Below, in pieces: positions 50,561 through 62,460 of a stretch of DNA of 64,000 nt. A program made the position numbers and the translations under genes. Within the stretch, counting starts at the first letter, position 1. Every line of letters starts with the position of its first letter. Source of the DNA: Nitrosovibrio sp. Nv17 (lineage in GTDB: Bacteria > Pseudomonadota > Gammaproteobacteria > Burkholderiales > Nitrosomonadaceae); assembly GCF_900119085.1 (NCBI RefSeq), contig NZ_FPIQ01000002.1, positions 62,001 to 126,000 on the forward strand, in the 5' to 3' direction. The notes under the pieces were generated by a model that did no database searches, was not told the DNA's origin, and saw only the letters and a program-made list of their open reading frames with translations.

Positions 50561-50718
50561 CGAAAAGCCTCCATGCATGAAGCGGGGTTCCGCTTTTCCG
50601 AAGCAGGGTCTGATCAGCCCCGTTCCCCGCGAATGGCCAAGCGCGATATGAAAAAATATTGATGTATATCATATGAATACACCGATAACCCAGATATTGC
50701 ATCAATTTTTGTTGCGGT

Positions 50719-51029
50719 GGTGCCCGAGGCCGGGGTCGAACCGGCACGACCGAAGTCGAGGGATTTTCCTGCCACTTCGGCTTTCGCCGCCGGCGCACGC
50801 GCCGTTCGTGGTCTGGAGCACGCCTTCACCCTAGCCTTGCGGCCTTAGGCGCCCGCCGTCTGCTCTCTACGCCTTCCCGGGCCTTCCGGCCACAGGCTTG
50901 GCTCGGCGTTGGCTCGGTGCCGGGGCACCAGGGCGTTCGCCGACTTTGACGGGCTTCACCCCGGCGGTTTCCTACCGGGGGCTCAAATTGCTCAAGTCCC
51001 TTGTGTCTACCAATTTCACCACTCGGGCA
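50719..51029 (-). tRNA. tRNA-Leu (anticodon UAA), interrupted by a group I intron
   Basis: Exon 1 (51029-50995, 35 nt) and exon 2 (50768-50719, 50 nt) join into an 85-nt class II tRNA with encoded CCA. The acceptor stem is GCCCGAG/CTCGGGC, the D arm contains TTGGTAGAC, the anticodon stem AGGGA/TCCCT has loop CT-TAA-AA, the long variable arm is CGAC-TTCG-GTCG, and the T stem GCCGG/CCGGC has loop TTCGACC. The anticodon is UAA; the intron falls between U34 and A35. A possible extended -10 on the minus strand (TGCTAGAAT) is at about 51126-51118. Confidence 0.93.
50769..50994 (-). ncRNA. Group I intron (subgroup IC3-like, Azoarcus type) in tRNA-Leu
   Basis: The 226-nt intervening sequence matches the core of the Azoarcus tRNA-Ile group I ribozyme in several blocks: AACGCCGAGCCAAGC, GTAGAGA with GACGGC (R/P7), CCTAAGGC and GGTGAAGGC (J8/7-S region). 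P7 is kept by covariation: ACUA/UAGU in Azoarcus is AGCA/UGCU here. P1 can form with the exon U paired to intron G10 (the conserved U-G wobble at the 5' splice site), and the intron ends in G. There is no internal reading frame for a homing endonuclease. Self-splicing is predicted. Confidence 0.9.
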
Positions 51030-61395: not shown

Positions 61396-62460
61396 TCAAA
61401 AATGCATCTTGATGCTGGCTTGGTAGAATTCATCCGCCACATCGCCCTTCAGATCGACCCCGGCAGCGAAGCGCAGCGCGAGGTGCAGGGGCAGCGCAAA
61501 CTCGACATAAGGCCCTATCCAGTTGTAGAGCGTGCCAGGATTTCCGTCGATACGGTCGACATGGAAGCGCAGGTGTTCCCAGTGCACGCCCACAGAACTG
61601 ATGGGTATGTTCCTGAGATTGAAGAGTGCCGGCTTGACCCCGACATTCACCCAGTTATGGATGAAATCCCTCGCCCGTTCATCGCGGATGGCGGCATAGT
61701 AGGCAATGTATCCCTGGCCGGTGAAGTAATCGTCGTCGTAATTGATGGTCAGGCTTGGCACCACGCCTTCTGCTGCGCGGATGCCCCGGCCGATGACCTG
61801 GCTGGAGAGAAGGGCACCGTTGAGTATGCCGACTTGGGGATTGATGCTTATGCGTCGTTGCAAGAAGTGGAAGTTCAGGCCCATGCCGACCTCGGTCCAC
61901 AATCCGTTGCCGCCGGCATCGACCTGGGTGCCATTCGGACCCGAGATTACCCGGCTGCGCCCGAAGTTGGGGCTGGTCCAGAGCCAGCTGTAGAAGGTGA
62001 AATCGATGTGATCGGTGATTTCGTAGCCGGCATCGAGGATGGTCTGGAAACCGAAGAATGCATCCTGTTTCAGCGTTACCCCGCCATGAAATTTGCTGCT
62101 GTCGAAGCCGTGGCCATGGACCTTGCTGTCAGTGTTCTGCCACCCTGCGTCGTCGGTGAAGGGATTTGCGTCCGTGACTTTTTTCAGGATTGGCACCGCG
62201 CCGCTGGCACTAGTTTTCTCCGGCTCGGATCCGGGCTTCCGGTCTTCCGCTCCTCCTGCGGTTTTTTCCAGTCGTGCTTCCAATTCCGCAATCCGCGCTT
62301 CCAGAAATTCCAGCTTCTTCCCCAGATCTGCATCGGTTTGCGGGAGAGCTGCGGGTGAGCTGCAGGCACCTCCAAGAAATATAAGAAGACTCAGGCATTT
62401 CCTGATGTTTCCTGTTGAATTTTTCCTCCATCCTTTCTCCGATTCGAGCTGTACCGACAT
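61396..62460 (-). CDS. Porin-like outer-membrane protein with coiled-coil N-terminus
   Basis: The 354-residue precursor has a signal segment (CLSLLIFLGGACSS), a short trimerising-type coiled coil (DLGKKLEFLEARIAELEARLEKTA), a Pro/Ser linker and a beta-strand-rich region (ITDHIDFTFYSWLWTSPNFG; GLWTEVGMGLNFHFLQRRISINPQVGILNG) ending in Phe (IKMHF). The aromatic C-terminus and strand pattern indicate a barrel. It is not clearly one of the classical porin families. The ATG at 62460 lies behind AAGGGAAACG. Confidence 0.78.
   Translation of the reverse strand: MSVQLESEKGWRKNSTGNIRKCLSLLIFLGGACSSPAALPQTDADLGKKLEFLEARIAELEARLEKTAGGAEDRKPGSEPEKTSASGAVPILKKVTDANPFTDDAGWQNTDSKVHGHGFDSSKFHGGVTLKQDAFFGFQTILDAGYEITDHIDFTFYSWLWTSPNFGRSRVISGPNGTQVDAGGNGLWTEVGMGLNFHFLQRRISINPQVGILNGALLSSQVIGRGIRAAEGVVPSLTINYDDDYFTGQGYIAYYAAIRDERARDFIHNWVNVGVKPALFNLRNIPISSVGVHWEHLRFHVDRIDGNPGTLYNWIGPYVEFALPLHLALRFAAGVDLKGDVADEFYQASIKMHF

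Follow-up and report, generated by a model that had tools for sequence, protein, structure and literature searches.

A small group I intron in the tRNA-Leu(UAA) gene of Nitrosovibrio sp. Nv17, and the probable import of the gene that carries it

Introduction

Is the tRNA-Leu(UAA) gene of this bacterium split by an intron, and if so, how did the genome come by such a gene? An earlier note on the window (the whole stretch of 64,000 nucleotides of DNA that was analysed) had proposed a gene interrupted within its anticodon loop. In group I chemistry, a guanosine held at P7 cleaves the 5' splice site and the exons are joined at the intron's terminal G. The usual tRNA hosts of introns such as the one described here are tRNA-Leu, tRNA-Ile, tRNA-Arg(CCU) and tRNA-fMet. 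A literature search found no survey of such introns across bacteria; one may exist.

Gene structure and splice sites

With introns allowed, ARAGORN reports a tRNA-Leu(UAA) gene on the minus strand of the window (51028..50718), split after U34 of the anticodon, as tRNA-Leu(taa) with a 226-nt intron and the junction 'gactt-Intron-aaaat'. The 5' exon (50994..51028, minus strand, 35 nt; ARAGORN with introns allowed) ends with U34, and the 3' exon (50718..50767, minus strand, 50 nt; ARAGORN) begins with A35 and includes the encoded CCA. The 226 nt between them (50768..50993, minus strand), delimited by our covariance model R2 and by covariation, form a group I intron of what we take to be subgroup IC3, whose terminal G is the G of the 3' splice site. 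This bears out the earlier placement of an IC3-type intron between U34 and A35 of tRNA-Leu(UAA); the limits given then, 50719-51029, point to the right gene with both ends one base off.

The split gene is passed over by a standard tRNA scan, as had been claimed: without its intron option, ARAGORN finds nothing in the unspliced 312-nt stretch. Once the 226 nt are removed, it directly calls the spliced 85-mer as a tRNA-Leu(UAA) with a full cloverleaf, a call that concerns the fold only, so that the joined exons form a complete tRNA, as predicted. The splice sites also follow the rules of bacterial tRNA introns of type IC3, with a U in P1 paired with G at the 5' site and a G at the 3' end of the intron. 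A scripted splice scan lists in addition a reading shifted by one base (CT|GAAAA, anticodon GAA), which arises because the intron ends in GG. We rejected this reading, as a single terminal G is found in 18 of the 19 aligned relatives (L105 likewise ends in GG), which supports the junction CTT|AAAA, and an intact tRNA-Phe(GAA) is present in the genome. We are nearly certain that the tRNA-Leu(UAA) gene of this bacterium is interrupted by a small group I intron.

Intron fold and proposed splicing

The secondary structure was first drawn manually, guided by what is known of the family, and its pairing and covariation were then examined in an alignment of 20 sequences, 18 from genomes (including the window) and 2 from viral contigs; the 19 relatives comprise 16 introns in tRNA-Leu(UAA) and 3 in tRNA-Leu(CAA). 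All features lie on the minus strand. In P1 (50982..50996), exon CUU and intron GAG pair with UUUGAG around a 3-nt loop, with the U.G pair at the 5' splice site; 96.7% of its cells are paired across the 20 sequences. The P2 hairpin (50959..50980) has a GAAA loop and shows changes on both sides in 6 of 7 pairs. It is followed by the 5' strand of P3 (CCCGUC, 50948..50953), by P4 enclosing P5 (50904..50942) and by P6 (50871..50902), the last two placed by fold and covariation. The 5' strand of P7 (AGCA, 50861..50864) adjoins the 3' strand of P3 (GACGGCGGG, 50852..50860), and the P3 pairing of the window intron is CCCG/CGGG. P8 (50827..50851) contains the sequence CCUAAG...UAGGG, a candidate receptor by sequence that presumably corresponds to what is called the 11-nt receptor. 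The 3' strand of P7 (UGCU, 50817..50820) precedes P9 (50772..50811), which encloses two inner hairpins, one of them capped by GAAA; in P9.1, both sides are changed in 4 of 5 pairs.

Standard pairs occupy 94.8% of the 1333 cells (20 sequences, 69 pairs), and 21 of the 69 pairs show changes on both sides, where 500 shuffles average 11.4 and sliding the partners gives 2-13. Because P7 is invariant and P3 nearly so among the 20 sequences, these two helices were counted over a wider set, the 108 of 122 rows of the genome scan described below in which all strands were found (14 failed). Among these 108 introns from the matches listed, P3 has a single non-standard cell in 432 and P7 has none in 432, the search expression itself fixing the outer A-U pairs of P7. 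Three types of P7 occur in them: ACUA/UAGU (87 introns), AGCA/UGCU (19) and ACCA/UGGU (2). The compensatory change from ACUA/UAGU to AGCA/UGCU that had been noticed earlier is thus confirmed. All named helices can form, including the core helices P3, P4, P6, P7 and P8 of IC3 tRNA introns, and the core columns show little or no variation against the 19 relatives. The folded structure of the intron is supported by covariation, and P7 is predicted to bind guanosine.

The intron most likely splices itself out. The precursor would fold, and a guanosine bound at P7 would attack after the U.G pair of P1, that is, after U34; the freed 5' exon would then attack after the last G of the intron and join the exons, giving a ligated tRNA predicted to read UUA and UUG. 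What the sequence shows is the fold, agreement with the splice-site rules and a complete tRNA after splicing; catalysis, by the chemistry of the family, and expression are inferred.

Detection by covariance models and gene finders

Two covariance models were built: R1, which includes the window intron, and R2, from the 19 relatives with the window left out. R2 scores the window intron at 242.1 bits (E 1.6e-73, the tool's E-values being rough), and its second-best place in the window reaches 4.2 bits. Since R2 was built without the window, a chance match is excluded. A search of the genome for a second IC3 intron gave none at E up to 1 among the 150 of 1831 first-look candidates that were scored.

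Standard resources give another picture. In the whole window, ARAGORN without introns detects one tRNA-Val as the sole tRNA, and Rfam at the gathering cutoff detects that tRNA-Val alone. At the locus, the Rfam group I model RF00028 reaches 13.5 bits against a gathering cutoff of 50, slightly below the bits that an unrelated lncRNA model obtains over the same stretch; no Rfam model reaches E 1 in the 2 kb around the locus, and RF00028 has no match in the whole genome. As a control, we examined eight loci with tRNA introns of the window type. Rfam detects one of them, a tRNA-Ile (L055), and misses seven, including the tRNA-Leu loci of Azonexus, Rhodanobacter and Pseudomonas and two tRNA-Ile loci. 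With seven of eight sibling loci missed, we rejected Rfam as a judge of this locus, and the silence of RF00028 reflects a limit of the model that is uninformative about the window intron. The covariance-model check suggested earlier therefore divides, RF00028 staying under its cutoff and R2 scoring high. The earlier note had treated the lack of any covariance-model hit as grounds for abandoning the reading, which would have misled because the Rfam model is insensitive to such introns.

The portion of the tRNAscan-SE 2.0 paper that bears on this point states that the program was not designed for detecting group I introns in bacterial tRNAs, and mentions such introns in tRNA-Ile2 of Acidovorax and Burkholderia (PMC8450103). 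Genomes may therefore appear to lack tRNA-Leu(UAA) where such introns interrupt the gene, as both ARAGORN without introns and the Rfam group I model miss the split gene.

Copy number, codon use and host

RF00005 has 43 matches in the genome, of which ARAGORN names 41; the leucine tRNAs named at these loci have the anticodons CAA, TAG, CAG and GAG, and no second tRNA-Leu(UAA) is among them. Likewise, the joined 85-nt query has three matches in this genome, one at each exon and one at the Leu(CAA) gene. The check for a second, uninterrupted copy that had been called for thus yielded none. The assembly consists of 56 contigs (completeness 99.83), so a further copy could lie in a gap.

UUA is rare but used, accounting for 2 of 405 leucine codons in ten genes of the window. 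That UUA codons are used while no other gene reading them was found in the assembly argues against a decayed, non-splicing gene or pseudogene, as do the formation of all named helices and the near-invariant core. A simple scan found no sigma-70-like promoter or terminator near the gene; the missing promoter-like site would fit decay, which we nevertheless regard as scarcely credible.

Fragments of amoA are present at two contig ends of the genome. A 94-aa AmoA piece matches ammonia monooxygenase in the PDB at E 2.4e-62 and methane monooxygenase at 1.8e-30; with ammonia monooxygenase the closest match, the host is probably an ammonia oxidiser of the Nitrosomonadaceae.

Two further observations concern the tRNA set. 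tRNA-Asn is absent among the tRNAs named in the genome, perhaps because it lies in an assembly gap. Contig C30 (75642-75988; L163) holds tandem tRNA-like sequences scoring 41.9 and 28.8 bits with RF00005, the second under the cutoff; ARAGORN accepts neither as a tRNA.

Comparison with known introns

The window intron adds a new member to an established kind, the proteobacterial tRNA-Leu(UAA) introns. A publication of 2002 reportedly described a tRNA-Leu(UAA) intron of 231 nt in a Pseudomonas, with the P8 motif CCUACG...UAUGG. Compared by this description only, the two interrupt the anticodon of the same gene, are of similar length (231 and 226 nt) and have related P8 motifs; they differ in the host, here a probable ammonia oxidiser, and in the P8 sequence, here CCUAAG...UAGGG. 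The intron of Pseudomonas jinjuensis (L123) falls within the same clade as the window intron.

With the Azoarcus pre-tRNA-Ile(CAU) ribozyme, an IC3 intron, the window intron has in common the architecture of the core and the location in a tRNA anticodon loop. It differs in the tRNA and the site that it occupies and in its P7 (AGCA/UGCU), and we take a further P9 hairpin to be another difference. Azoarcus-type introns and the window intron belong to separate clades, judged by eight other proteobacterial tRNA-Ile introns as stand-ins. Solved structures of the Azoarcus ribozyme are named in a passage of a 2014 review (PMC3984707).

The cyanobacterial trnL(UAA) intron lies between U34 and A35. In the relevant part of one source, the trnL(UAA) intron of cyanobacteria and plastids is said to interrupt the same tRNA gene (PMC4476775), a likeness to the window intron that is drawn by description only.

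Phylogeny of the intron

Relatives were collected with sequence patterns. The scan of genome contigs yielded at least 120 loci, and its 122 rows comprise 120 loci, one of them matched twice, and the window; the scan of viral contigs yielded at least 120 rows, 59 of them without classification. The proportions in these scans are no census, because the patterns fix part of the intron core and the counts concern the matches listed. A splice rule assigned 94 of the 122 rows to a tRNA, with one reading chosen by a fixed order of preference where a row had several candidates; these 94 were placed in a tree and the 28 unclassified rows were left out. Among the matches listed, the assigned rows are 63 Leu(UAA) including the window, 11 Arg(CCU), 8 Ile(CAU), 4 Leu(CAA), 3 Thr(UGU), 3 Thr(GGU), 1 Arg(UCU) and 1 Lys(CUU).

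In the 94-intron tree, the window intron is one of 15 Leu(UAA) introns that, with 3 Leu(CAA) introns, make up a clade with support of 100/100, and P7 is AGCA/UGCU throughout these 18 introns from the matches listed. Their hosts include Rhodanobacter, Lysobacter, Pseudomonas, Stutzerimonas, Achromobacter, Azonexus, Hydrogenophaga and Pararobbsia. By tree position, P7 and the acceptor stem GCCCGAG of its gene, the window intron belongs to this Leu clade of Beta- and Gammaproteobacteria. The sister of the clade consists of nine alphaproteobacterial tRNA-Arg(CCU) introns (96/93). Six label changes on the tree are needed for the remaining 48 Leu(UAA) introns, which do not form one clade with those of the Leu clade. 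Given this sister group and the failure of the remaining Leu(UAA) introns to group with the clade, a switch of tRNA at the base of the Leu clade is possible.

The earlier note had read the intron as a tRNA-Ile core at the Leu site. The site holds, but the framing of the core does not: the window nests among Leu introns, and a long branch (1.33) sets off the eight tRNA-Ile(CAU) introns as a clade of their own (100/99). A site transfer that brought an intron from proteobacterial tRNA-Ile to tRNA-Leu could explain the shared IC3 core blocks, and such introns do occupy several tRNAs, the Arg(CCU) sister indicating that changes of tRNA did occur. Trees that join the Ile introns to the Leu clade (p 0.31) or to the window intron (p 0.38) are, moreover, not rejected by AU tests. 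Even so, the position of the window within a Leu-only clade, apart from the Ile clade, makes such a transfer very improbable, and we set it aside as something that the tree does not need for the window intron. Since that intron is nested in the Leu clade, it needs no site transfer of its own, and the P7 change marks the clade and is not private to it. The choice posed in the earlier note, between site transfer and common descent, takes another form and concerns the start of the Leu clade, whose sister on the tree is Arg(CCU) and not Ile.

The highest intron identity among the matches listed is 89%, to Rhodanobacter thiooxydans. We do not claim a sister relationship to this species, as the grouping (99/89 in the 94-row tree) is missing from a 27-row tree. 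Compared with the Rhodanobacter locus having the most similar intron (L103), the exons agree at only 80 of 87 aligned positions.

Four loci (L099, L105, L116 and L322) are tRNA-Leu(CAA) genes with a P7-GC intron and have C-G in place of the usual U.G at the 5' splice site. Introns of the window type are also found in genes that read as Ser(UGA), Arg(UCU), Thr(UGU), Thr(GGU) and Lys(CUU) (L323, L345-L347, L080, L085, L143, L037, L081 and L091). A window-type core occurs in records labelled as Planctomycete, Actinomycetota, Chloroflexi, Acidobacteriota and Gracilibacteria MAGs (L033, L041, L062, L071, L089, L091 and L128), where contamination of the MAGs is possible.

Distribution and origin of the gene

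Of 23 genomes in the host genus, the window genome alone has the intron by R1. In each of the 22 congeners the tRNA-Leu(UAA) gene is intact, is 89 nt long and has the acceptor stem GCCCGGA, unlike the window gene, whose stem is GCCCGAG (GCCCGAG/CTCGGGC). In the host family, R1 matches 5 of 125 genomes, strongly in the window genome and in G116 (247 and 253 bits) and at 42-92 bits in the other three; in a sample of 369 genomes of the class, 55 match at E up to 0.001, with individual inspection covering the fetched loci.

The acceptor stem follows the type of intron. GCCCGAG is present in all 20 other P7-GC Leu(UAA) genes among the matches listed (14 named genomes, 2 viral contigs and 4 others; the L320 intron is identical to that of L140, possibly one genome counted twice, and row L054 was left out because its 5' exon lies outside the fetched stretch). 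It is also present in 3 of 4 P7-GC Leu(CAA) genes and in none of 48 P7-CU Leu(UAA) genes of named genomes, again among the matches listed. Uninterrupted genes with exactly this stem pattern occur in 0 of 125 genomes of the family and in 3 of 369 of the class.

From the distribution of the intron and the acceptor stem, we consider it probable that exons and intron arrived as one imported gene, which replaced a resident intronless gene. More generally, transfer of whole intron-bearing genes between lineages is favoured by the tie to the acceptor stem, by the sparse spread, and by an AU test that rejects the separation of eight beta introns, the window's among them, from eight gamma introns as a single clade (p 0.0038; sets drawn up after the first tree, with the window and L315 counted as beta by inference). 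The adjoining methyltransferase gene, whose best matches in congeners reach only 40-50% identity, fits a locus not common to the congeners and is no proof of import. As the flanks of tRNA-Leu(UAA) vary among the congeners themselves, missing synteny proves nothing.

Movement of the intron alone into a resident tRNA-Leu(UAA), by reverse splicing or homing, would agree with the usual insertion site and with exon 1, which is identical at 33 of 35 positions (94.3%) to several congener genes. Against it, the exons bear the stem of intron-bearing genes elsewhere and not that of the 22 congeners, and 226 nt would, judging from size, be too short to hold a homing-endonuclease gene; we regard it as rather improbable.

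Vertical descent from a family ancestor with an intron-bearing GCCCGAG gene, since lost or replaced in nearly all other members, deserves somewhat more weight but is still unlikely. A second family member of another genus, G116, carries the same kind of gene (L315). UvrB puts every congener at much the same distance from the window genome (85-88%), so the latter may represent an old branch that retained the ancestral gene. Set against this are the R1 matches in the family, of which only two are strong, and the tree, which places the G116 intron beside those of a class member and a Rhodanobacter and not with the window, although an AU test does not reject forcing the two together (p 0.085).

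Returning to import, we tentatively extend it: the GCCCGAG tRNA body and the P7-GC intron may be a co-moving cassette that has repeatedly replaced resident tRNA-Leu(UAA) across Beta- and Gammaproteobacteria, a proposal that we put forward with more doubt than confidence. If true, a tRNA gene that the cell cannot do without travels as a unit able to splice itself. With the same pairing of intron type and tRNA body in distant hosts, and the intron in only 1 of 23 genomes searched in the genus, the way in which intron-bearing tRNA genes spread can be tested directly.

In one congener (L285), reading of the sequence shows an integrase-like frame directly upstream of the intact tRNA-Leu(UAA), as at an island insertion site.

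Viral contigs and plasmids

Phage tRNA arrays with P7-CU sister introns could be one vehicle for such genes. As carriers of the window's own Leu clade, phages make a weak candidate that we did not retain: an annotated phage collection gives matches in 3 of 50,697 records, all distant. Two viral contigs have P7-GC introns (L240 and L242), either in phage genes or in host DNA that flanks a prophage. No cyanobacterial introns were found among the viral contigs with the one pattern used. A passage of the 2014 review places all phage introns known at that time in protein genes (PMC3984707).

On IMG/VR contigs L177, L187, L220, L232, L245, L265, L268 and L215, window-type introns lie in tRNA genes within tRNA arrays. 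Among the matches listed, 36 of 61 classified viral contigs have at least two other tRNAs on the fetched stretch, and up to 30. The viral-contig tRNAs with such introns are Leu(UAA), Lys, Arg and Thr, and L220 and L177 also bear phage-family helicase, endolysin or DNA ligase genes.

Plasmids contain a further variant (L375). Stretches like it, with at least 80% of the query covered, are found in 1257 of 72556 plasmid records, nearly all at 60-80% identity. In the one record inspected, NC_004464.2, the stretch (61829-62076) is a degenerate-looking, tRNA-Leu-like sequence with a window-type intron, near aac(3)-IId.
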